A stretch of 45,046 nt of DNA from a virus: positions 1-45,046 of IMG/VR virus record IMGVR_UViG_3300025896_000004; one strand, 5' to 3'. The position numbers and the translations under genes are program-made. This document shows positions 10,509-41,146 of the stretch, in pieces (the stretch's first letter is position 1; every line of letters starts with the position of its first letter). Under the pieces are notes generated by a model. The model did no database searches. It saw nothing but the letters and a program-made list of their open reading frames with translations, and was not told the DNA's origin.

Positions 10509-10742
10509 TTACAAGCGCTTCATGTGAAGATCGAAGCCTTGACGCGCGTGCTTGATCCACATGCGCATCACCTTTGCGGCCGTTCCGGTATAGTAGCCGA
10601 TCCGGTATTCGAGTCGCTTGATGAGATCCGCGTGTTGCGCCATACGTGCACGCCTGCGCGCCTTCGACATCTGATGGCGCCGGCGGGCGCGCGCTCTTCT
10701 TTGCTTCGAGTTCAACGGCTTGTTAACAGTCTGCGGGTCCAA
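10509..10742 (-). CDS. Highly basic small protein
   Basis: Start TTG 10742 is chosen because AAAGGAGA lies just upstream. The 77 residues include a very Arg-rich stretch (KQRRARARRRHQMSKARRRARM, about 13-34), so nucleic-acid binding is likely. It overlaps the end of the sugar dehydrogenase gene by 20 bases. No known family. Confidence 0.62.
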   Translation of the reverse strand: MDPQTVNKPLNSKQRRARARRRHQMSKARRRARMAQHADLIKRLEYRIGYYTGTAAKVMRMWIKHARQGFDLHMKRL

Positions 10743-11622
10743 CGAGATCTCCTTTGTTTAGATCGGTTTTAAGTTCGGTGTTCTGATCGAAGATCTTGTC
10801 GTTCTTCGCGGCGCCGGTCTCGAAGTCCTTCTCGCCTCTATAGAATCGATTGAGGCACAGAACGTCCTTCAAGAAGTAGTGCTCGGCGTACGAGCCCACG
10901 AAGCCGATGAATGCTTCCAGGTCCTTCGGGAAGCACGCGCCGCCGAAGCCCTTCTTGCCATCCGGCCCGGGCACATGCGTGTGCGCGTCGTTGATGTGAC
11001 CCGACATCTGCATGAGCTGTCGGACGTTCGAGTACTTCACACCGTGCTGATCGCACAGCCGGGCGATCCCGTTGAAGTACGTGACCTTCACGGCGCCGAA
11101 CACGTTGTGCGCGTACTTCGTCATCTCGGCCGTCTTGTTCGAGCAGAAGTTGATGTGCTTCTTATCTTCGGTCACTTCACGCATGAAGCGACAGACGCTG
11201 TCCATGAACTGATCCTTGAGCGGGCTGTCCATCTGACACTGCGGGATCCCGATCAGCATCGGTTGCTGAATCAGATCCTCGTCCGCGCGCCGCTCGGTCA
11301 GGAACTCAGGCATAGCGTGAACCTGCAGGCCGTATCTGCGCATGAGATCATCGCATGTGCCAGGAAGGACAGTGCTTCGCAAGAAGACGAGGCCATCTGA
11401 ATCGGTGTTGATCTGTGAGAGCGCCTCAGTGACGATCGACAGATCCTGCTTGAAGCCCTTCGTCGGCACGGGCACGCTGATGAAGTACGCGTCCGCGCTG
11501 TCATCGAACGCATCGTGACCCTGAGGCGGATCGTAGATCGTCACCTCGTGCTTCGTGTTCTGAATGAGCCAGCGCCTGAGCGCGCCGCCCACCACTCCGT
11601 TGCCTACAATACTGATTCGCAT
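10723..11622 (-). CDS. Short UDP-sugar dehydrogenase (WbpA/TviB-like, lacks C-terminal domain)
   Basis: A 299-residue protein of the UDP-glucose/GDP-mannose dehydrogenase family. Residues 5-14 (IVGNGVVGGA) form the NAD-binding loop; EMTKYAHNVFGAVKV (166-180) carries the conserved Lys/Asn; GFGGACFPKD contains the catalytic Cys230. These enzymes oxidise a UDP-hexose twice, to the uronic acid. Full-length members have about 420 residues with a C-terminal UDP-binding domain, which is absent here; the gene ends soon after residue 265 with a charged tail. It lies directly downstream of a 4-epimerase gene with overlap, recalling the WbpA/WbpP and TviB/TviC pairs of host polysaccharide loci. Confidence 0.88.
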   Translation of the reverse strand: MRISIVGNGVVGGALRRWLIQNTKHEVTIYDPPQGHDAFDDSADAYFISVPVPTKGFKQDLSIVTEALSQINTDSDGLVFLRSTVLPGTCDDLMRRYGLQVHAMPEFLTERRADEDLIQQPMLIGIPQCQMDSPLKDQFMDSVCRFMREVTEDKKHINFCSNKTAEMTKYAHNVFGAVKVTYFNGIARLCDQHGVKYSNVRQLMQMSGHINDAHTHVPGPDGKKGFGGACFPKDLEAFIGFVGSYAEHYFLKDVLCLNRFYRGEKDFETGAAKNDKIFDQNTELKTDLNKGDLVGPADC

Positions 11623-12560
11623 GTTAGTTCTACTCCTTGTCTCCAGTTGTGCGTCGGCTCGTAGCCGAGCAGTTGCTTTGCTTTAGTTATGTCCGCACCG
11701 CTCACTCGGATGTCGCCTTCGCGCATGCTCCGATGCTCAAGCGGTGCAACCTTGTATCCCATCTTGACCGCGTGAACGCAGATCTCGTTCCACATCCCAC
11801 CGAGCGAGACCTGCTCGCCGGCGCCGATGTTGAACACCTCGTGCTGCGTATCGAGCTTCGCATCCGCGGCCAGAAGATTCGCATAGGTCACGTTGTCGAC
11901 GTACGTGAAGTCGCGCGTGATCTCGACCCATCCGTTCATCACCGCCTGGCGGCCGGTCTTGATGCAGTCGAGCCACTCAGGAACCACGGCCGCGTACGGG
12001 CCGACCCTTTGCCGCGGGCCGAACACGTTGAAGTAGCGAAGCCCGACTAAGGTTGTCTCGCCGCCGGCGGCCGCGCAGATCTCAGCATCTAGCTCGTTCA
12101 GCCGCTTCGAGACGGCGTACGGGCTGAGCGGACGACCCATGCGATCCTCGGCCTTGAGTGTGTCTTCGATGTTGCCGTACACGCTGCTCGACGAGGCGTA
12201 GACCACGCGCGGAACCTTGTGATCGAGCGCGCTCAAGAACAGGTGTCGTGTTGCGATCACGTTGTTCGTGATGTACAGGTGCGGCTCTTTGCGCGATCGC
12301 GGAACGGATCCCAGGGCTGCGTTGTGGAAGATCACATCGAAGCGGCCGCCGGCGATCAGTTCTTCACTCGCATCAATGTCGGCGAGATCGACTTGCGAGA
12401 AGACGAACTTGCCAGGCAAGGAAGCCAGGATCGGCTCGACGTTGTACGGCGTGCCAGTGATGAAGCTGTCGATGCCCACCACGTCGTGACCTATCTTCAC
12501 AAGACGCTCCGCAAGATGAGATCCGATGAAGCCGGCGGCACCGGTAACAAGACACCTCAC
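11604..12560 (-). CDS. NAD-dependent nucleotide-sugar 4-epimerase (WbpP/TviC-like)
   Basis: A 318-residue extended short-chain dehydrogenase. TGAAGFIGSH (residues 6-15) binds NAD, YASSSSVYG gives the catalytic Ser and SPYAVSK the Tyr/Lys pair. The LGSVPRS segment after HNAA is typical of UDP-N-acetylhexosamine C4-epimerases. Likely reaction: interconversion of UDP-GlcNAc and UDP-GalNAc, or their uronic acids. With the downstream dehydrogenase it could supply a modified sugar for phage or host surface glycans. Exact substrate is inferred. Confidence 0.9.
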   Translation of the reverse strand: MRCLVTGAAGFIGSHLAERLVKIGHDVVGIDSFITGTPYNVEPILASLPGKFVFSQVDLADIDASEELIAGGRFDVIFHNAALGSVPRSRKEPHLYITNNVIATRHLFLSALDHKVPRVVYASSSSVYGNIEDTLKAEDRMGRPLSPYAVSKRLNELDAEICAAAGGETTLVGLRYFNVFGPRQRVGPYAAVVPEWLDCIKTGRQAVMNGWVEITRDFTYVDNVTYANLLAADAKLDTQHEVFNIGAGEQVSLGGMWNEICVHAVKMGYKVAPLEHRSMREGDIRVSGADITKAKQLLGYEPTHNWRQGVELTCESVL

Positions 12561-24780: not shown

Positions 24781-25044
24781 TTACTTGCCCGCCAAAGCCT
24801 TCGCGACGTCGGCGACAAGCAGACCGTACAGGTTGTACGACTCCTTCGCCTTCGCTTCGTCGTCCAGCTTCTCGAAGCCGTCGACCGCGGTGATCAATCC
24901 AGGAAGAGAGCCGGCGGCGATCTCGGTGATCGACTTCTTCGCCTTGATGTCTTCAAGCAACTTCACGAGGAAGTCCTTCACATCCTTCATCTCTTTAGGA
25001 ACCTGAACGGTTACGTCGACGAGCTGTACTTGCTGTTCATCCAT
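24781..25044 (-). CDS. Hypothetical protein
   Basis: An 87-residue protein from ATG 25044, with AAGGGGG seven bases upstream. It begins MDEQQVQLVDVTVQVPKEMK and continues as helices (DFLVKLLEDIKAKKSITEIA). Similar small proteins accompany phage lysis genes. No function is assigned. Confidence 0.68.
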   Translation of the reverse strand: MDEQQVQLVDVTVQVPKEMKDVKDFLVKLLEDIKAKKSITEIAAGSLPGLITAVDGFEKLDDEAKAKESYNLYGLLVADVAKALAGK

Positions 25045-26356
25045 GCGTGCCCCCTTCATGTGGCGTTGGTATCATTGAGTTGTCTTTGTAGATCCAGTTT
25101 ACAGCGTCGTTCCGGCTCTGCAAGTCTATATCCCGCAAGTAGCGGACGCAGTCGCGACTCTCGACGAACATCTTGAGCTTGTCGGCCGGGTCTGTAGCTC
25201 TCAAGGCTATCTCGCGGAAGCAGTGAGAGAGAGCCATCAAGAACGAGGCGTTGTTCGGCCGCAGCTCGAGCGCCTTCTGTATATACTTAGCAGCATCCTG
25301 ATACTTGTCGTATCGCATGCACACGTCGCCGGCGAGACGTAGCGGCTCGAGAGAGGTCGGGCAAGCCTTCAGCATGGGAGCGACGAAGTTCTCCATCACC
25401 CACTCGAACGGCGGCTGCGTGTCCCGCGCGGCGTGTGCCTTCTGGCGCGACTGCTCGTACGCGTTCACCCAGGCGGCCGGGAAGTTCGAGAACTCGCGCA
25501 GAGCTTCCTCGAACTTCGTCTCGCCATAGAGGATCGCGGCCGTCTTGATCCGCTTCATCACGGCCTTCAACTTCTCAGGGTCGATCTTCGGGATCTTCGC
25601 ATCGGCCATCAGCGCGTCGTTGCGCTTGCACAAGTACGTGTTGTCGTACAAGTAGAGATCCTTCTTCACGATCTCAAGGCCCACCTTCGCAAGCAGATAC
25701 TCGAAGTGCGCCGGATGCCATACGTTGATGTGGTGTGGATCGTAGTAGAACTCAAGGTCGAAGCCGTCGGTTCCCGGGTTCACCATCTTCTCGTGCCAGA
25801 TCGGAACAGAGATGTACATGAAGCCGTCTTCGTGAAGGCACTCGACGTATTCACGCAAGCGAAGATCCACGTCGAGCTGATGCTCGGCCACCTTGAACGA
25901 CGAGATCAGGTGATACTTCTTCGATCGATCGAAGTCGAGATCGAGTCGGATCCCGTACTCGTGCCAGGCGTTGCGCCGATACGCGAGCGCCCACTCGGTG
26001 CCGCTGATGTCGGCCTCAGGGAAGTGCGACTTGATCCAGTTTAGGAACTGACCGTACGCCGCTCCGATGTCGCACACGACCGGGTTCTTGAGGCCACGAT
26101 CCATCCAGCTCTTCAGCGTGTCGGTGAGGAACGCCGAGTGGATGTGCAGCTTCTTCTGTCCGGTGAATGCGTTCTGAACGCTCGGGCACTTGCGATAGTC
26201 TTCCTTGTAGTGTGCCTTGATCTCCGCTTCGGTCTTGTACATGCCCGGATACGAGATGAACCCGCAGCCCCCGCACATCATCATGCCCTTCTTCGTCATC
26301 CTGAACTGATCGACGTTCTCCCACTTGTCGGTCGAATCACACACTATGCAACGCAT
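25037..26356 (-). CDS. Zinc-ribbon SAM methyltransferase with C-terminal TPR region
   Basis: A 439-residue protein in three parts. Residues 1-35 are a zinc ribbon (Cys3, Cys6, Cys28, Cys31). Residues 75-240 are a class I methyltransferase with VVCDIGAAYGQFL as the SAM-binding loop and YISVPIWHE after the acidic strand, of the Methyltransf_23 kind found in sugar O- or C-methyltransferases. The C-terminal 150 residues are helical repeats with one clear TPR (AAKYIQKALELRPNNASFLM). The zinc ribbon plus methyltransferase plan occurs in C-methyltransferases of deoxysugars. It overlaps the aldolase gene, supporting a joint pathway. Confidence 0.82.
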   Translation of the reverse strand: MRCIVCDSTDKWENVDQFRMTKKGMMMCGGCGFISYPGMYKTEAEIKAHYKEDYRKCPSVQNAFTGQKKLHIHSAFLTDTLKSWMDRGLKNPVVCDIGAAYGQFLNWIKSHFPEADISGTEWALAYRRNAWHEYGIRLDLDFDRSKKYHLISSFKVAEHQLDVDLRLREYVECLHEDGFMYISVPIWHEKMVNPGTDGFDLEFYYDPHHINVWHPAHFEYLLAKVGLEIVKKDLYLYDNTYLCKRNDALMADAKIPKIDPEKLKAVMKRIKTAAILYGETKFEEALREFSNFPAAWVNAYEQSRQKAHAARDTQPPFEWVMENFVAPMLKACPTSLEPLRLAGDVCMRYDKYQDAAKYIQKALELRPNNASFLMALSHCFREIALRATDPADKLKMFVESRDCVRYLRDIDLQSRNDAVNWIYKDNSMIPTPHEGGTHG

Positions 26357-27158
26357 TCTGAACCCCCTTAACCTTTAACATTAATTGATTGAACGCCTGG
26401 AAGCTGATCGCCTGATCCGCGTCGGACAGGCTGTTAACCGGATCGGGATGCACTTCAACGAGGCATCCGTTCGCGCCGGCGGCGACGCCGGCCAAAGTCA
26501 TCGGCTCAACGAGATCGCGCCGGCCGGTGCCGTGAGATCCATCGACGAGAATCGGGATCCGCGTGATCGCCTGAACCGCAGGGATCATCGAGATCGAGAG
26601 ATCCCAGCGTACATGTGTCGCGTTGCCGGCGGATCCGCGCTCGATCAAGTACAGCTCTTCGACGCCGCCGGCGAGGAGATGCTCGGCTGCGCCCAGCAGC
26701 TCGTCGATCGTGGTGCCCGGGTTGCGCTTCAAGAAGACCGGCTTCTTGTAGCAGCCCAGAACCCGAAGCAGCGTGTAGTTCTGCATCTGACGGCAACCGA
26801 CCTGGAAGCAGTCAGCGTACGCGCTCACGAGATCCATCGCGTACTCGTTGTAGTCCAGAACCTCGATGATGTTCTGAAGCCCGTTGTCGAAGGCCGCTTG
26901 ATGATACGCGCGCAGCAGCTCCTTCTCGACAAGACCGAAGTTCTTGCCAGGATAGGTGCCGGCGCGGAAGACACCGCCGCGCAAGTGCGTTGCGCCCGCG
27001 GCCGCGACGTGAATAGCGATCCGTTTGATCTGCTCTTCGTTCTCGACCGAGCAGGGTCCGGCGATCACGGTGAATGTTCGCCGGCGCGGGGAATAGTTCT
27101 CGACGCGATCGTAGCGCGGAGTCGGACCCCACGAGCGACGCTTTGCGAACTCGTTCAT
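26337..27158 (-). CDS. DAHP/KDO8P/NulO-synthase-like PEP aldolase
   Basis: A 273-residue protein of the type I-beta DAHP synthase fold. Conserved: AGPCSVE (Cys36), QVGCRQMQN, KPVFLKRN, LIERG, DGSHGTGRRDLV (His209), CLVEVHPDP (Glu235) and SLSDADQ (Asp246); the four metal ligands are present. The loop that reads K-P-R-T in DAHP synthases is here R-A-G-T (65-68), followed by YPGKNFG, so the acceptor sugar may not be erythrose 4-phosphate. The family condenses PEP with an aldose to give a 3-deoxy-2-keto acid. The neighbouring methyltransferase and cytidylyltransferase-GT genes suggest a glycan role, not aromatic amino-acid supply. Confidence 0.85.
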   Translation of the reverse strand: MNEFAKRRSWGPTPRYDRVENYSPRRRTFTVIAGPCSVENEEQIKRIAIHVAAAGATHLRGGVFRAGTYPGKNFGLVEKELLRAYHQAAFDNGLQNIIEVLDYNEYAMDLVSAYADCFQVGCRQMQNYTLLRVLGCYKKPVFLKRNPGTTIDELLGAAEHLLAGGVEELYLIERGSAGNATHVRWDLSISMIPAVQAITRIPILVDGSHGTGRRDLVEPMTLAGVAAGANGCLVEVHPDPVNSLSDADQAISFQAFNQLMLKVKGVQNALHSV

Positions 27159-27160
27159 GT

Positions 27161-27364
27161 TTATTTACTCCTGTAAGATTTAACGTATGCGAATGCGAGA
27201 CGCCAGTAGATGACGTCGGTGATCGTGAACACAAGGATGAGCGGCGACAACCGGATGATCTGATCCCAGTTGCCGGCCGCCGCCCAGGTGACGGTCGACT
27301 CCCACACGCAGTACGTGAGGAAGTTGTAACCGATGAATAGCGCCGCGAAGATCAGCTCGAACAT
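27161..27364 (-). CDS. Small two-span membrane protein
   Basis: A 67-residue protein with two hydrophobic segments (LIFAALFIGYNFLTYCVW and LSPLILVFTITDVIYWRLAF) and a basic end. It lies between the aldolase and a hypothetical gene. Two-span topology fits a holin, though a holin-like gene already lies beside the endolysin. Function unknown. Confidence 0.65.
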   Translation of the reverse strand: MFELIFAALFIGYNFLTYCVWESTVTWAAAGNWDQIIRLSPLILVFTITDVIYWRLAFAYVKSYRSK

Positions 27365-27741
27365 CAGTAGCTTCCCTTCTTGCGCAAGTACGCCTCGAAC
27401 TCGGCATCGCGCTGGCGCTTTGCTTCCAGACTGTCCGCGGTGCCGAGTGCGTTGACTCGGTCGTTCAGCATAGGGTTGCGAGCCTTGAGAATGCGACGAA
27501 GGGTCTTGTCGATCGAGCCGATCCAGCGACAGTACGTCTCTGCGATCTGCTCGGTCACGAGCCCCTTCTTCTGGATCGTGTGCATGCCGATCTGAATGCC
27601 CTTGCGGACGTTGATCAGTTCATCCATCTTCTGATCATTAAGACAGCGAGTCAGCCAGGCGTTCCACTTCTTCGAGTTCTCGAAGCCTTTGATCTGGCCG
27701 GCGAACAGCTTCAACACGTCGATCTCAAGGTTCGCCTTCAC
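27364..27741 (-). CDS. Hypothetical helical protein
   Basis: A 125-residue protein, MKANLEIDVLKLFAGQIKG onward, helical and basic. It overlaps the next upstream gene by four bases. No recognised family. Confidence 0.65.
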   Translation of the reverse strand: MKANLEIDVLKLFAGQIKGFENSKKWNAWLTRCLNDQKMDELINVRKGIQIGMHTIQKKGLVTEQIAETYCRWIGSIDKTLRRILKARNPMLNDRVNALGTADSLEAKRQRDAEFEAYLRKKGSY

Positions 27742-27983
27742 TTCTTCTTGCCCTTCTTCTGGCGCTTGCCGTTCGCGTACATCGCCATCAGCATCGGATG
27801 CGCGATGAAGTTCGGGCCGTGCGGAAGCTTCTCGCCGCCCTCAAGCCAGGCTTGTGCACCTTCGGAGAAGAGCTTCTTGCTGAGCAGCTTCCAGATCCGG
27901 CGCGCGCGGGCCGCGGTGATCTCTTTGCCGCCCACATCTTCACTCGTGATCCATGTCACGAATTCGTTCATGTTCTTGATCAT
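27738..27983 (-). CDS. Hypothetical basic protein
   Basis: An 81-residue protein with a Lys-rich end (NGKRQKKGKKK). AGGGGG lies seven bases before ATG 27983. No recognised family. Confidence 0.63.
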   Translation of the reverse strand: MIKNMNEFVTWITSEDVGGKEITAARARRIWKLLSKKLFSEGAQAWLEGGEKLPHGPNFIAHPMLMAMYANGKRQKKGKKK

Positions 27984-29296
27984 GGTGTTCCCCCTTGATC
28001 GATAGAGTGTTTAATTCGCTCGCGTTCTGCGAGATTCGTCTTCGACATCGAGCCATCATGCTGGCGATACATGAAGATCGGGCGGCTTAAGTAGCCGATC
28101 TTCAGCGACTTCTGCGCGCGCTTGAATAGATCGTAACCTTCGTAGCCGCGAAGTCCATCGGTGAACTTGATGTGATTCAACGCGCGTGTGCGGAAGAGCG
28201 CGCCGCCCACATGGTGCGAATCTTTGCCGTGCTGAACGAAGTCCATCTTCCCGAAGTAGTTGTTCGGATATATGACGTCGCAGCCTTGAACGGCGATCGC
28301 CTTCAGGAGATCGCTCAACGCCTGCGTGGTGGTGAAGTAGTCGTCGGCATCGAGCCGGACGATGAACTTCCCCCGGGCGTTCTCAAGCGCCACGTTCGAC
28401 GACGAGGCCAGGCCCACGTTCTTCGAGTTGCGGATATAGGTCACGTTCGGATAGAGCGCCGCGAACTTCGCCATCAAGAGCGCCGTGCGATCGGTCGAGC
28501 AGTCGTCCACAAGGACGTACTCGTGATCGCGGAAGCCGCTTTGCGCGCTGACGGATCCCATACACTTCTCGATCCACTTCTCCGCGTTGTACGCACAAGT
28601 GTAGATCGTGGTCATCGGCATGCGGTTGATGCGGGTCAGCCAGGGCTGATCGACGAGCAGGCGAAGGACGTCATCCAGCGTGCAGTCGTTGCCCAGTATC
28701 CCGAAGATCCGCTTCATCAGCTCGATGTCCTCGGGGAAGTCGATCAGCAGGCGGACGTCTTCAAAGTCTGCGTGCACCGCCGGCCGCGCATCGAGCTTGC
28801 GCTCGGTCACGTTGCGGATCGCATACGAGACGTGCTCGACGTTGCGATACTTCTTCGCCGCTTCTTCCAGAGCCCAGAGCGCGATGATCTCAAAGCCGGA
28901 TCCAGGCGTGAGTGCCGAGCCGTACACATAGTGCAACTGGTTGCGCCAGTACTCGTCGAGGAAGCGGAAGATCGCGTCGGTATCAACGAAGATCTTGTCG
29001 TGCGTGATCCGGATGATCGTGTCGACGTCGTGAGCCTTTGCCGCCCAGAACATCCGCCGAAGCGGATCCTCGTCGTCGCCGGCGTACACGTTGAACGAGC
29101 CAGAGAACTCGCTGAAGATCTCCATGAACTGCGACGACTCTTCTTGTGGAACTGCGTAGATGATCTGCAGGCCAGTCTTGAGCAGGCGATCGTGCAGATG
29201 CTGCAGGATCGGCTTGCCATTGATCTCGGTCACACACTTGTTCGGAACGCGCCGGCTCTTCAGCCTGGCGCATACGATGATCGCGGCTCGCATCAT
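27980..29296 (-). CDS. SpsF-like cytidylyltransferase fused to GT2 glycosyltransferase
   Basis: A 438-residue bifunctional protein. Residues 1 to about 215 are a nucleotidyltransferase of the SpsF/KdsB/NeuA group: IIVCARLKSRRVPNKCVTEI, NGKPILQHLHDRL and the sugar-side IDFPEDIELMK. Residues from about 228 are a family 2 glycosyltransferase: TTIYTCAYNAEKWIEK, YVLVDDCSTDRT and the metal motif RLDADDYF. One polypeptide could thus activate a sugar (acid) with CTP and transfer a sugar to an acceptor. It overlaps both neighbours by four bases, in one transcription unit with the PEP aldolase. Target and sugar are unknown. Confidence 0.88.
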   Translation of the reverse strand: MMRAAIIVCARLKSRRVPNKCVTEINGKPILQHLHDRLLKTGLQIIYAVPQEESSQFMEIFSEFSGSFNVYAGDDEDPLRRMFWAAKAHDVDTIIRITHDKIFVDTDAIFRFLDEYWRNQLHYVYGSALTPGSGFEIIALWALEEAAKKYRNVEHVSYAIRNVTERKLDARPAVHADFEDVRLLIDFPEDIELMKRIFGILGNDCTLDDVLRLLVDQPWLTRINRMPMTTIYTCAYNAEKWIEKCMGSVSAQSGFRDHEYVLVDDCSTDRTALLMAKFAALYPNVTYIRNSKNVGLASSSNVALENARGKFIVRLDADDYFTTTQALSDLLKAIAVQGCDVIYPNNYFGKMDFVQHGKDSHHVGGALFRTRALNHIKFTDGLRGYEGYDLFKRAQKSLKIGYLSRPIFMYRQHDGSMSKTNLAERERIKHSIDQGGTP

Positions 29297-29529
29297 ACGG
29301 CTTGTTCGGTGCCTTCGTCTGCGGCCGACTTCAGCACGGTCTCATCCAAAGCATCGAGCGAGAAGGCGAGCTTCTTTGCGATACGGATGGCTGTGTTCAG
29401 GTGAGGCAACTGCGCCCCGCTCGCGTAGCGGTTAACCGCGATGCGCGAGATCTGGCACTCCCGAGCGAGTGCACTTTGCGACATGCCCTGATCCTTCAGA
29501 GCTTGTGTCATGGCTTCTGCGAATGTCAT
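29293..29529 (-). CDS. XRE-family HTH protein
   Basis: A 78-residue protein with an XRE HTH: MTQALKDQGMSQSALAREC, SRIAVNRYASGAQLPHL. It starts at ATG 29529 behind TGGGGG and overlaps the GT gene start as ATGA. It may regulate the sugar/lysis operon. It is the second XRE gene of the genome and differs from the one at 20691. Confidence 0.85.
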   Translation of the reverse strand: MTFAEAMTQALKDQGMSQSALARECQISRIAVNRYASGAQLPHLNTAIRIAKKLAFSLDALDETVLKSAADEGTEQAV

Positions 29530-30495
29530 CTATGACCCCCATGGTTGTTTATAGCCTTTGTATGATTCAAAGGAACTGCAAGTACGGCACGGGTTCTCCT
29601 CGAAGGCTTGCCCGTTCTTGAGATCCGCACGCAGCGATCGCGCGAATTCTCCGTTGAAGATGTCGTAGAGCTTCTCGGTTCTGATGTCGCCGAGTTCGAG
29701 CTGCTCCTTGATGTCCGGGCAACACGGGAACGCGCGCCCTTCGTGGTTGAAGATCAATCGTACGTGCGCCTGAATGCACGACTGTCGGTTGTCGACGTCG
29801 CGCCGGCGGGCTTCCATCTGGCCGACCTTCTCGCTCTCTACGCGGCCGGCGACCATGTCCCTGATAGATGCCTTCGCTTCCGGCCAGCGCTTCTTGATCT
29901 CGCCGGCGATGTCCTCGTCAGCGTTGAGGCGCGTGCGCACCGCTTGAATCACGAGCTGTGTCTCCGACTTGATGCGCGCGGGATGGTTATAGAACAGATC
30001 GACGTTCTCGGTCGTGAGATCGTGATCGCCGCCGGTTCGCTGCTTCTCAAAAACGAACTTCCGGAAGCTGTCATACGAGACTTTAACCTTCGTCAGAGAG
30101 GCGAGACCGTGGAACACGTCTTCACGCTTCTGCGGAATGATCTTGAAGTTCGAGTTCGCGATGCGATCGATGAACGTGGATCCACGCGCGAGTGATCGCG
30201 CATGCTCGGTGATCAGTCTGTAGTTCGGGTTGAGCGTGCCCTCGCCCTTCCAGTTGAACTTGAGAGAGTGGACGCCCAGGAGCGCCGCCTGCTCGATGAT
30301 CGAGAACGCGATCTCTCTCGACATGAAGCCCTGTTTGAACGGGAGCTTCTTCTTATCTGAATGATAGCAGTACGAGCATCCCATATTGCAAGCGCTTGAC
30401 AGCTCAAGTGACACATCAACAGGAACACGAAGAGGCAAAATGCGACCATAGTTGTACTTCACCCTGTACTTGAAGAGAGACATAAATTGTAGCAT
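29530..30495 (-). CDS. Radical SAM/SPASM-like protein
   Basis: A 321-residue radical SAM protein with the cluster motif CNMGCSYC (Cys36, Cys40, Cys43) after SLELSSA. Later Cys residues (QSCIQAHVRLIF, FPCCPD, NPCRTCSSFE) bind an auxiliary cluster as in SPASM or twitch domains. The FNHEGRAFPCC sequence is typical of the SPASM group found in polysaccharide and peptide-modifying loci. Substrate unknown; in an operon with sugar enzymes it may modify a sugar or glycan. Start ATG 30495 is uncertain; ATG 30483 is an alternative. Confidence 0.85.
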   Translation of the reverse strand: MLQFMSLFKYRVKYNYGRILPLRVPVDVSLELSSACNMGCSYCYHSDKKKLPFKQGFMSREIAFSIIEQAALLGVHSLKFNWKGEGTLNPNYRLITEHARSLARGSTFIDRIANSNFKIIPQKREDVFHGLASLTKVKVSYDSFRKFVFEKQRTGGDHDLTTENVDLFYNHPARIKSETQLVIQAVRTRLNADEDIAGEIKKRWPEAKASIRDMVAGRVESEKVGQMEARRRDVDNRQSCIQAHVRLIFNHEGRAFPCCPDIKEQLELGDIRTEKLYDIFNGEFARSLRADLKNGQAFEENPCRTCSSFESYKGYKQPWGS

Positions 30496-30621: not shown

Positions 30622-31689
30622 TTACTTGATGTAGTAGACGATCACGATCCCCGTTCCGCCGTTGCCGCCGTTGTTACCGGTTCCGGATCCCGGGCCGTTA
30701 CCACCGCCACCGCCACCGCCCGCAGATCTTCCGCCGGCGGATCCTGCGCCGGCTTGCCCGTTGTTACCACCATCGCCGCCTTCACCGCCGGATCCGTATC
30801 CGGCGCCACCGCCACCGCCACCGCCGCCAGTGTTCGTGCCCCCGCCTTTGTTACCGGTTCCGCCAGTAGCGTAGCGGCCGCGCGTTCCTGAGATGCTGAC
30901 GTTGCCGAAGCCGCCGGCGCCACCTGCGCCGCCCGAGCAGTATTCACCCATCGTTCCCCAGCCGCCGGATCCGCCGGCGCCACCTGCGCCGCCAGCGACC
31001 CCCGGGCTTCCGCCGGCCGCGCCCGCGACCGTAAACAAGTTCGAGAAGCTCGAGGATCCACCGCTGCTACCGGCAAAGCCGTTCGATGCAGATCCGCCGG
31101 TTCCAAAGCCGCCGCCGGTGCCGACGGTGATCGAGTACGCTGTGCCCGGCGTAACTTCGACGAATGTGAAGACGGGCTGACAGCCAGCCCCACCGCCACC
31201 ACCGCCAGAGTCGACAGCCGATCCAGAGTCAGCGCCACCACCGCCACCACCGCCACCGCCCGCCATCAGGAGACCAATGCGGAAGACGCCAGCAGGACAT
31301 GTCCACGTCTGGTTAGAGGTGAATGTCTGCGCGACGAAGTTGTGCGTGCCTGGCGCCATGAATGCACCATCGAAGCCCGCGGGGATGATCTTCGCAACGG
31401 TTGTCGAGCCGATCTTGAAGAGCATCGCGCCGGCGGTTGCCGACGGATCCCCGAAGATCTCAACCGCGGCCGTGGTCGTAGACGATCGCAAGTCGATGCC
31501 ATCAAGGAAGGCCGTCTTCCATCGGTGCTCGCTCGAGCCCAGGTTGTGAGTCAGGTGCGATGCCGACGCCGTGTTCACGTTGATCGGGAGAAGCGTGCCG
31601 CGATAGTTGTTGAAGTTGTCGTTCACTTCACTCGAGCGCGCCTTCGTTCCCGCCTGGAACGTGTTGTATGTGGTTATGGTATCTGGCAT
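30622..31689 (-). CDS. Glycine-rich tail fibre/adhesin
   Basis: A 355-residue protein. Residues 1-75 form a module shared with the fibre gene at 33803-34522 (SSEVNDNFNNYRG, LGSSEHRWKTAFLDG). Residues 128-150 (TFTSNQTWTCPAGVFRIGLL) start the glycine-rich domain typical of phage adhesins, followed by about 200 residues of Gly-rich turns that likely form polyglycine-II helices, as in T2-type gp38. Loops between Gly tracts would contact the receptor. It is the last late gene, a usual position for a host-range determinant. AGGGGGG precedes ATG 31689. Confidence 0.88.
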   Translation of the reverse strand: MPDTITTYNTFQAGTKARSSEVNDNFNNYRGTLLPINVNTASASHLTHNLGSSEHRWKTAFLDGIDLRSSTTTAAVEIFGDPSATAGAMLFKIGSTTVAKIIPAGFDGAFMAPGTHNFVAQTFTSNQTWTCPAGVFRIGLLMAGGGGGGGGGADSGSAVDSGGGGGGAGCQPVFTFVEVTPGTAYSITVGTGGGFGTGGSASNGFAGSSGGSSSFSNLFTVAGAAGGSPGVAGGAGGAGGSGGWGTMGEYCSGGAGGAGGFGNVSISGTRGRYATGGTGNKGGGTNTGGGGGGGGAGYGSGGEGGDGGNNGQAGAGSAGGRSAGGGGGGGNGPGSGTGNNGGNGGTGIVIVYYIK

Positions 31690-38704: not shown

Positions 38705-39102
38705 TTTTTTTTACCGTTCGCGTACGCCATGATCTGAACGTACAGGTCATTCGCCAGACCCATGTCTGTGAAGAGATGCTCTACGGGGATGGCCGCGGGA
38801 TCCGCCGGCTGATCTTTGCTGATCTCCCTGACTATCTTCGGATGCACAACGGCGTTCACGAAGACGTCGCGGAAGTGCGCGCGCATCTTCTTGACGGTCG
38901 AGTCGCTGAGTTGACCTTCGCCCTTCACCTGCTTCTTGTACTCGTCGTAGTACTGAAGCATCACTTGTGAGCCATCCAGATAGTCGAGGGGGGAGATCTT
39001 CTTGATCGTGAAGACCACGCCGTGCACGCGCACTTTGCGGGTCTCGTTGAGGACCGCGCCTAGATCGCGGCCCCGGAATAGGCGGGATAGGAAGCTGATC
39101 AT
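38698..39102 (-). CDS. Tail-assembly chaperone G
   Basis: A 134-residue protein, MISFLSRLFRGRDLGAVLNE onward, ending NGKKKL at a stop directly after nine A residues. It lies between the tail-tube and tape-measure genes, the fixed position of gene G-type chaperones. The final AAA AAA AAA codons form the slippery site. It overlaps the tail-tube stop. The protein would keep tape measure soluble until tube assembly. Confidence 0.85.
   Translation of the reverse strand: MISFLSRLFRGRDLGAVLNETRKVRVHGVVFTIKKISPLDYLDGSQVMLQYYDEYKKQVKGEGQLSDSTVKKMRAHFRDVFVNAVVHPKIVREISKDQPADPAAIPVEHLFTDMGLANDLYVQIMAYANGKKKL
38704..38712 (-). promoter_or_regulatory. Programmed -1 frameshift site (A9)
   Basis: Nine consecutive A residues on the minus strand contain the heptamer A AAA AAA in the right phase, followed one codon later by the zero-frame TAG. 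Slipping back one base joins G to the GT frame. Confidence 0.82.
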
Positions 39103-40139
39103 CAGTAACTCGAGATCGCGTTCCGGATGAAGAGTCGCATCGCATAGCCGAGCGTCACATCACGAAGGACGTTGAAGGCCACTTCGGAAGTGAGGAACTC
39201 GTCCGGCCCGCCGATCTCGGGATCGCCGGAGTCGGAGACCTTGAGCTTCGGCACCACGATCTTGATCCGCTTGCGCAGAGAAGATCCGGTGATCGTAGAG
39301 CCCAGGAACTCGAATTCACCCGCCAGGCGAGTGCCGGCCAGCATCGCGTCGTACGCGGTGGTGGTGTCGAAGCGCATCGTCACGTTGAACGTGAAGGAAG
39401 CGATCCCCGGGGGAAGAACATCGAGCAGCTCCGAGCCGATTCGACCGGAAGCCGAGTCGCTCTTGATCGAGTTGCTGATGCCGATCTCGGCCGCTTGCAC
39501 ATGCCAGTACGAAGTGGTGGTCAGAGATCCAACGCTGTCTGCGATCGAGATCCGGCCACCGACGAAGCTCAAAGGCTCGAAGTCCATCGAACCCAAAGCG
39601 CCCGACACATCGTTAGATCCGACTGTCGAGTCGATGCCGACGATCGAAGTCGAGTACTTGAGAGCTTCATCCATCTCTGCGGAGAAGGTCAGCTCGTTGA
39701 TGCGCACGCCGTTGTATTGGAAGACTTTGCCAGTTGCCGAGTCACCTTTGCGGTGATTCAAGCAGATCGAGGAGATCGATTGATCGAAGTTGCCGATGTC
39801 GATCTGATGGTCGAAGGCGGTGCCGCCGGCCGTCTCACCGGTTGCGGTTGCCGAGGTGATCGTTCCGCCGAACGCGTTCTGCAGCAAGTACGCCATGCCC
39901 GTCGCTTCTGCGAAGGCGTATCCCTCGAACTCGCCTTCGATCTTCTTCTGCAGTTGAATGTCGTGTGAGTGAGTGCGATGTCCAGAGATCTGCTCGATCG
40001 TCTTCGACTCGCGCATCGTCTTCAGTGCGCAAGAGATGAACGGAAGTCCCGCGGTGCAAGTGTTGTACGTCTTGAAGACATTCTCGCGGCCCACCGCCAG
40101 ATAGCTGAGACCCGAGATCACTGCGCCTTGTCCGACCAT
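39102..40139 (-). CDS. Major tail (tube) protein
   Basis: A 345-residue protein: MVGQGAVISGLSYLAVGREN, then LKTMRESKTIEQISGHRTHS and later GEFEFLGSTITGSSLRKRIKIV. The layout of beta strands with a central EFEGYAF and a C-terminal helix-strand segment fits tail-tube proteins of siphoviruses (TTP family with an extra domain). It polymerises as hexamer rings round the tape measure. TAGGGGG precedes ATG 40139. Confidence 0.85.
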   Translation of the reverse strand: MVGQGAVISGLSYLAVGRENVFKTYNTCTAGLPFISCALKTMRESKTIEQISGHRTHSHDIQLQKKIEGEFEGYAFAEATGMAYLLQNAFGGTITSATATGETAGGTAFDHQIDIGNFDQSISSICLNHRKGDSATGKVFQYNGVRINELTFSAEMDEALKYSTSIVGIDSTVGSNDVSGALGSMDFEPLSFVGGRISIADSVGSLTTTSYWHVQAAEIGISNSIKSDSASGRIGSELLDVLPPGIASFTFNVTMRFDTTTAYDAMLAGTRLAGEFEFLGSTITGSSLRKRIKIVVPKLKVSDSGDPEIGGPDEFLTSEVAFNVLRDVTLGYAMRLFIRNAISSY

Positions 40140-40150
40140 GCGTTAACCCC

Positions 40151-41146
40151 CTAGAGTGAGCCCACCATCTCGTAGTAGTGCTCGGTTCCGATGCGAATGA
40201 CGTTCTGCTCTATATCCTGAGCTTCCTTAAGTAGTTTGTCACGCCTCGCAAGTTCGGCGCGAACAAAATCAGCGTCATCAGGACGAAAGCTGTACTGCAT
40301 CTGCTGAGCGAGATCGCCGTTCTTCTTCAGGCCCAGCACTGTCTCTTGCGAGCACTGGACGACGGGCAAGTTGAAGCCATTGATATACTGCTCAAGCCAC
40401 TGCGCGGAGAAGATCAGATTCGACGACGAGTACGCGTATGACCCGGCCTTCGTCACGCAGTAGACGTGCTTCATGTAGTGCTTCTTCCCATCGGCCGCAT
40501 CGTCGAAGGCGTAGTACTTCCCGTTATGGCGCCAGGAATAGTCGTAGCCGATGAGCAGGAGCTTGTCGTAGCCGAAGAAGTTCTTGCGGCCAGAGTTGTC
40601 GCTCTGTGTGAGGAAGACGACCATCGCGTTCGACACGTTCGTGCCCGCGGGGATCGTGTTGCTGCATCCACTCAGTTGCATGAACTCAAGCTCGGTGCGG
40701 ATCACGTCGCGGTTCACGAAGAAGTACTTATCCTTCCAGTTGCCGAGCGCGGCCCACTTCGGGTTGCCGCAGATGTTTGAGAATAGGATCGTGTCTTGAA
40801 GCTGATCCTTCCACGGCGCCATGTACTTCTCGTAGTTCACCATCGCGTCGGCCACGAGACAGAACGTCGGCTTGATCCCATGATTCAGCAGGTGTCCGAG
40901 CGTCTTGTCACAGCAGAGAATGTCGACCTTGCCCTGATGAGCTTTGATGACCTCGATGTTCTCCTCGAGGGAGTAGCCGTTCGCTACTAGAAGGCACGCC
41001 TTGCCCACGCCGATGTTCGCGAAGTCGGTCAGCGGCTTGAAGGGGGCGTGGCGGGAGTTGATCTTCGCGTGCTCTTGCCAAAGCTCAGCCCACTGCTTGT
41101 ATGCGCCCTTCGACTGCGCGACGACCTTCTTCTCGCTGAGACCCAT
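40151..41146 (-). CDS. MptE/DUF115-like (Maf-type) glycosyltransferase homologue
   Basis: A 331-residue protein with the DUF115 core: KACLLVANGYSLEENIEVIK, VDILCCDKTLGHLLNHGIKP and TFCLVADAMVNYEKY, then a second half with KLLLIGYDYSW and AGSYAYSSSNLIFSAQWLEQ. In bacteria this fold occurs in flagellar Maf proteins, which transfer nonulosonic acids to flagellin, and in an archaeal pterin kinase. A sugar transfer role is more likely here because the phage also encodes a PEP aldolase and cytidylyltransferase. It sits between tail-terminator and tail-tube genes, just behind a tandem repeat. Confidence 0.82.
   Translation of the reverse strand: MGLSEKKVVAQSKGAYKQWAELWQEHAKINSRHAPFKPLTDFANIGVGKACLLVANGYSLEENIEVIKAHQGKVDILCCDKTLGHLLNHGIKPTFCLVADAMVNYEKYMAPWKDQLQDTILFSNICGNPKWAALGNWKDKYFFVNRDVIRTELEFMQLSGCSNTIPAGTNVSNAMVVFLTQSDNSGRKNFFGYDKLLLIGYDYSWRHNGKYYAFDDAADGKKHYMKHVYCVTKAGSYAYSSSNLIFSAQWLEQYINGFNLPVVQCSQETVLGLKKNGDLAQQMQYSFRPDDADFVRAELARRDKLLKEAQDIEQNVIRIGTEHYYEMVGSL

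Follow-up and report, generated by a model that had tools for sequence, protein, structure and literature searches.

Why would a tailed phage carry, close to its virion genes, the apparent means to make and activate a sugar acid, and what would receive this sugar? The question was raised by the virus record IMGVR_UViG_3300025896_000004 of IMG/VR, the whole of which (45,046 nucleotides) was analyzed as one window. Genes for a major head protein, a portal-MuF protein, a terminase, tail proteins and an endolysin were found in the window, together with a cassette on the minus strand. The initial annotation had read this cassette as a joint pathway for a cytidine monophosphate (CMP)-activated keto-sugar acid aimed at the tail. 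Our analysis suggested that this phage, which belongs to an uncultured tailed lineage, probably encodes a CMP-ulosonic-acid pathway feeding O-glycosylation of the virion. Transcription of the cassette ran from a fibre-like protein through a radical S-adenosylmethionine (SAM)/SPASM enzyme and a helix-turn-helix (HTH) protein to a cytidylyltransferase fused to a family 2 glycosyltransferase (GT2), and then through small proteins to an aldolase, a methyltransferase and the lysis region. The aldolase, methyltransferase, fusion, Maf-like, epimerase and dehydrogenase genes were all in place with intact frames, as the annotation had named them; the radical SAM/SPASM gene had been omitted from its gene set, though it was later found in every locus compared.

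The aldolase (26337-27158, minus strand), with a Shine-Dalgarno-like AGGAGT ahead of its ATG, matched PF00793 (E 2.6e-43, 148.3 bits against a cut-off of 25.5). It was assigned to the phosphoenolpyruvate (PEP)-dependent superfamily of 3-deoxy-D-arabino-heptulosonate 7-phosphate (DAHP) synthase I-beta, as a subfamily termed RAGT, and is proposed to be an ulosonic-acid synthase. Its best solved relatives by sequence were class I-beta DAHP synthases (PDB 1zco, E 2.9e-56), and the predicted model (predicted local distance difference test, pLDDT, 88.5) was nearest in fold to 1VS1 (Foldseek E 1e-27), with the 3-deoxy-D-manno-octulosonate 8-phosphate (KDO8P) synthases behind. The enzyme had been annotated as of DAHP/KDO8P/nonulosonic-acid type; the PEP-dependent superfamily held, but KDO8P synthase and NeuB did not, since both sequence and fold were closest to DAHP synthase I-beta. 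The KANRS motif of KDO8P synthase was absent from the aldolase (TIGR01362, 53.8 against a cut-off of 314), and the NeuB domain PF03102 had no match in it. Alignment revealed that residues C36, R60, R123, K144, R174, H209, and E235 were equivalent to residues C61, R92, R165, K186, R234, H268, and E302 of AroG, respectively, and the metal and PEP residues were retained in all 21 enzymes of the clade to which the window aldolase belonged. The erythrose-4-phosphate motif KPRT(S) was missing, with RAGTY in its place: residues K97-P98-R99-T100 of AroG were replaced by R-A-G-T, and G67 was the equivalent of R99. In AroG, Arg99 and Thr100 are the residues that bind the phosphate of erythrose 4-phosphate. 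The Gly at the R99 position and the Thr were invariant in 24/24 sequences of alignment A7. The aldolase also stayed below the NCBIfam cut-offs for DAHP synthases (TIGR01361, 239.1 against 267.75; PRK08673, 266.5 against 335). Because both second-substrate motifs were missing, the enzyme should be named neither DAHP synthase nor KDO8P synthase.

The 21 phage aldolases formed one clade (support 98/100), separate from the sampled bacterial enzymes. Within the phage lineage the aldolase was one of the better conserved proteins: its identity in close relatives was 58-70%, while the terminase reached 43-55% in most of these. Matches to the aldolase in isolate phages were all below 46% identity. Unannotated isolate records named as Listeria, Enterococcus, and Staphylococcus phages (OR846630, OR848333, OR844993 and similar) carried ordinary-looking host DAHP synthase genes, which are probably host contamination. 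A survey of plasmids and of 299 genomes of the phylum of Terrisporobacter gave DAHP synthase matches, none as strong as the phage members, and since the four best readable loci fetched from it carried KPRTS, the RAGT form could not be traced to a cellular source among the plasmids and the genomes of this one phylum.

A scan with the alignment of the cytidylyltransferase-GT2 fusion yielded 36 loci, including the overlap with the 19 viral contigs that carried the aldolase. The radical SAM gene was present in 36/36 loci and the methyltransferase in 32 (the other four were L080, L081, L103, and L110), and the order of radical SAM, fusion, a variable slot and methyltransferase was conserved in the readable loci, a recurrence far beyond chance. 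Three loci were unreadable at the slot; 32 of the remaining 33 contained a PEP-dependent synthase there, which was a PF00793-type enzyme in 24 loci and a short NeuB-type protein in eight. PF03102 was confirmed in seven of these eight, all seven that were scanned, with E from 1e-11 to 1e-34. The slot could thus be filled by the RAGT type of the window, by another DAHP synthase relative, the more distant of which showed GGGT or similar at the KPRT position, or by a relative of NeuB, the sialic-acid synthase. On the tree of the fusion the slot type switched at least eight times, and the nearest relative of the window with a readable slot was NeuB-bearing. This swap between PEP-dependent synthases, one of them of known ulosonic-acid chemistry, is the strongest evidence for the role of the cassette; because the slot was swapped with NeuB, a 2-keto-3-deoxy sugar acid is favored as the product and a supply to the shikimate pathway is disfavored. 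The genes were not scattered without one another in related phages, an outcome that the initial annotation had said would count against it, but traveled together as a set. This gene set was not described in the papers found. A third, shorter DAHP synthase-like slot type (about 235 residues, GGT[RM] motif) was observed in L095, L100, L101, L102, and L105, with an NDP-sugar epimerase beside it in L095, L100, L101, and L105, and L094, L097, and L099 likewise had small HTH-like genes next to the slot.

The fusion protein (27980-29296, minus strand) consisted of a KdsB/SpsF-like cytidylyltransferase domain (PF02348, E 1.4e-14, 54.9 bits against a cut-off of 22.6) and a GT2 domain (PF00535, E 3e-29, 102.5 bits). 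The cytidylyltransferase motifs RLxSxRxPxK, RITHDKIFVD, LIDFPED, and DADD were conserved in alignment A3, so that the domain combined PF02348 with the RxxSxRxPxK, metal-binding Asp and DxPED features of a CMP-ulosonate cytidylyltransferase. It did not reach the KdsB equivalog model (TIGR00466, 30.1 against a cut-off of 155.2). The methyltransferase (25037-26356, minus strand) was composed of an N-terminal CxxC...CxxC segment, in which C3, C6, C28, and C31 were invariant in alignment A5, a class I SAM-dependent methyltransferase domain (PF13489, E 4.5e-9) and a TPR-like tail (TPR_2, E 3.9e-5). Of its earlier description as a zinc-ribbon sugar-type methyltransferase, the cysteine motif and PF13489 were retained, whereas formal membership of the zinc-binding family PF08421 was not, as no match was obtained up to E 0.01 despite the invariant cysteines. 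The radical SAM/SPASM enzyme (29530-30495, minus strand; PF13186, E 2e-9; PF04055, E 9e-4) was a core member of the cassette, and its CxxxCxxC and SPASM cysteines were invariant in alignment A4. A viperin-like identity for it was rejected: the PADLOC match was weak (2e-8), a SPASM domain was present, and the gene was fixed in a sugar cassette.

Away from the cassette, the Maf/DUF115-like protein (40151-41146, minus strand), a proposed protein O-glycosyltransferase, matched PF01973 (E 9.5e-17, 61.7 bits against a cut-off of 34.6). Its model was of moderate quality (pLDDT 70), with the Maf structure 5MU5 as the best Foldseek match (E 1.2e-7, probability 1.00), and the profile of its family also picked up 5mu5 by sequence (E 1.5e-5). 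The full-length architecture of flagellin-type Maf was not found in this protein of 331 residues (PseD model, 26.7 bits against 670). The adjoining gene encoded the tail tube protein (39102-40139, minus strand; PF18906 Phage_tube_2, E 3e-21), which contained 20% Ser and Thr and is the proposed acceptor. The annotated neighborhood of a Maf-type gene and the tail-tube gene was thereby confirmed. The Maf gene stood directly ahead of the tail tube gene in 88/88 loci with enough room downstream for testing; in 87 the tail tube followed directly, and in one there was a 65-base overlap through an earlier start. Homologues of Maf were present in 21/28 cassette-bearing records tested, including NeuB-slot phages, and some of the records lacking it were short fragments. 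The fusion was missing from 13/16 Maf-bearing contigs, which were not counted as counter-examples because, by our reading of their ends, nearly all stop before the expected place of the cassette. No Maf relative was found in the isolate phages searched. Residues 91-110 of the tail tube formed a Ser/Thr-rich loop (TITSATATGETAGG), which was conserved among relatives and is a candidate glycosylation site.

A comparable set was found in contigs with a P22-like portal (e.g., G343), from a lineage unrelated to that of the window and called marine here from its sequence make-up, not from sample data. These contigs encoded the methyltransferase, the radical SAM enzyme, separate cytidylyltransferase and GT2 proteins, a VYGT-motif aldolase and a PF01973 protein (Pfam E 1.2e-28, with a weak match to the Maf family profile). 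The set was located among structural genes, with Maf and the cassette flanking a fibre-like protein of 29% Ser/Thr. By gene content, the set including Maf recurred independently in this lineage. In another contig, L030, the radical SAM, aldolase, cytidylyltransferase and GT2 genes lay side by side as separate genes within a lipopolysaccharide (LPS)-like cluster. This 57 kb viral contig also contained PfkB kinases, one of them fused to a CTP_transf_like domain, and several epimerases in the cluster. Judged from these comparisons, the fixed order, the replacement by NeuB, the loss of the sugar-phosphate arginine and the co-occurrence with Maf, also in an unrelated lineage, together support the joint pathway well. 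The annotated interpretation as a whole stood in part, with its core pathway strengthened.

From the genes, motifs, folds, gene order, slot replacement and co-occurrence observed here, we infer the chemical steps, the sugar, the order of transfer and the acceptor as follows. The aldolase would condense PEP with an aldose to a 2-keto-3-deoxy (ulosonic) acid; the aldose would be bound unlike erythrose 4-phosphate in DAHP synthase and would probably be unphosphorylated or differently phosphorylated. No phosphatase (KdsC) was recognized in the cassette, and none would be needed if the aldose is unphosphorylated. The cytidylyltransferase domain would use CTP to convert the ulosonic acid into a CMP-sugar. 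From this donor the Maf-like protein would place the sugar on Ser/Thr residues of a tail protein of the virion, the neighboring tail tube being the most likely acceptor, and the sugar may be extended or modified by the GT2 domain of the fusion, the radical SAM enzyme and the methyltransferase. Both CMP-KDO and CMP-Neu5Ac serve as donors for a Maf of Clostridium (PMC11339370). More tentatively, and with a chance that we place somewhat below even, the aldolases may be new ulosonic-acid synthases, derived from DAHP synthases, interchangeable with NeuB and acting on another, perhaps unphosphorylated, aldose, to give an undescribed CMP-sugar acid that a Maf enzyme of the flagellin type transfers to tail tubes.

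Several observations weigh against this pathway. L107 had a readable slot without a synthase, and the slot enzyme of L106 retained the arginine. Position 65 of the window aldolase was still basic (Arg in place of Lys97), which leaves room for some binding of phosphate, and the RAGT loop was among the least certain regions of the model (pLDDT 60-69). The second-best fold match of the Maf-like model was an MptE-type HPPK, and PF01973 also spans the archaeal pterin kinases (MptE/HPPK). We know of no characterized GT2 enzyme that uses a CMP-ulosonic donor; for this reason the fusion is not proof that the GT2 uses the product of its partner. The tail tube was not identified in the marine lineage, and the acceptor may therefore differ there.

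The nearest solved structures would suit an aldolase that is a DAHP synthase, an auxiliary metabolic gene for aromatic amino-acid supply with unrelated neighbors. We regard this as highly improbable, since KPRT was lost throughout the 21-member clade, the DAHP synthase cut-offs were not reached, the slot was swapped with NeuB, and the gene was in fixed linkage to the fusion; the slot swap and the lost motif were taken to rule out the shikimate role. Virus glycosyltransferases hypermodify DNA according to the title of Pyle 2024 (cited in PMC12619734), and the sugar acid could accordingly be placed on phage DNA as a base hypermodification instead of on protein. The position of the cassette among structural genes makes this very unlikely as well, as does the action of Maf enzymes on protein, and no base-modification enzyme was recognized among the window proteins scanned.

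Two further explanations accept the sugar acid and move its target. It could be added to host LPS or capsule for superinfection exclusion or receptor change, the usual proposal for phage LPS genes. The GT2 resembled O-antigen enzymes (GtrB-like phrog_841; chain 6p61, annotated just as "Glycosyltransferase"), a marine virus that encodes NeuA and KdsA has been interpreted in this way (PMC5332604), and the L030 aldolase was inside an LPS-like cluster. We nevertheless consider a host-surface target unlikely, because the set lay among virion structural genes in both the window and the marine lineage and co-occurred with a soluble Maf-like protein encoded directly ahead of the tail tube; no flippase or polymerase was recognized among the proteins scanned, a subset of the open reading frames. 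Alternatively, the sugar could be attached to a tail fibre or to some other protein of the distal tail. The cassette directly followed the gene of a Gly-rich tail fibre-like protein (30622-31689, minus strand; PF21722, E 1.5e-13, and PHROG tail fibre matches), homologues of which were observed upstream of the cassette in relatives, and the Ser/Thr-rich protein flanked in the marine contigs was also fibre-like. The annotated tail-tube target was consistent with the invariable adjacency of Maf and the tail tube, which argues against the fibre; the fibre is a live alternative, although a rather doubtful one in our view.

Among the other genes of the cassette, a Cro/C1-type HTH protein (29293-29529, minus strand; PF01381, E 1.1e-9) lay between the radical SAM enzyme and the fusion. 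Between the fusion and the aldolase were three small open reading frames (27738-27983, 27364-27741, and 27161-27364). The second, on the minus strand, encoded a small conserved protein without matches in Pfam, PHROG, or NCBIfam, homologues of which most relatives, NeuB-slot ones included, encoded between the fusion and the synthase slot; it is possibly a structural or regulatory partner. The third (67 codons), directly before the aldolase, contained hydrophobic stretches and appeared to encode a membrane protein. Outside the cassette, an epimerase/dehydrogenase pair had been annotated at 10723-12560. Both genes were present, an NDP-sugar epimerase (11604-12560, minus strand; PF01370, E 7e-50; top NCBIfam model TviC, 206 bits against a cut-off of 760) and a compact UDP-sugar dehydrogenase-like protein (10723-11622, minus strand; PF00984, E 1.3e-17, GFGGACFPKD motif). 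They were dropped from the core as optional accessories, since no more than roughly half of the relatives had them (10/19 and 8/17, respectively). The dehydrogenase-like protein had no match to the C-terminal domain of its family, and the homologous open reading frame of L006 was 593 residues long.

If the proposed pathway is correct, these phages would synthesize and activate their own sugar acid and decorate their virions by flagellin-type O-glycosylation, a chemistry so far known from the flagella of bacteria. Sugar genes that have lacked an explanation in uncultured phages would then have a definite function in the chemistry of the tail, with a possible bearing on adsorption or on how the tail tube evades recognition by the host, and the DAHP/KDO8P synthase superfamily would gain a testable new specificity. 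Among known systems, the family comparators of the aldolase were the DAHP synthases I-beta (AroA-beta/AroF; 1zco of P. furiosus, 1vs1 of A. pernix, and 1rzm of T. maritima), which shared its TIM-barrel fold, metal ligands and PEP-binding residues, with about 40% identity over the barrel; it differed from them in RAGT[YF] for KPRTS, in the absence of a regulatory domain and in its phage operon with a cytidylyltransferase and GT2. KDO8P synthase (KdsA) with KdsB offered the working analogy of PEP and an aldose followed by CMP activation, and the cytidylyltransferase motifs were KdsB-like, but similarity to the aldolase, which lacked KANRS, was far lower and no KdsC was identified in the cassette. 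The NeuB-NeuA and SpsE-SpsF pairs follow the same logic of a PEP-dependent synthase and then a cytidylyltransferase, and NeuB homologues occupied the same slot in sister phages, whereas the window synthase was outside the NeuB family. The Maf flagellin O-glycosyltransferases (5MU5) shared PF01973, the best fold match and the link to a CMP-ulosonic-type pathway, although the phage protein had 331 residues against 666 in the 5MU5 chain and its gene adjoined that of the tail tube. Glycans on the capsid and tail tube of mycobacteriophages have been reported (Freeman 2023, as cited in PMC12619734); glycosylation is phage-encoded there too, while the present case differs in having a whole set for sugar-acid synthesis and CMP activation plus a Maf-type enzyme. 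Overall, the pathway would work like a nonulosonic-acid or KDO pathway coupled to Maf.

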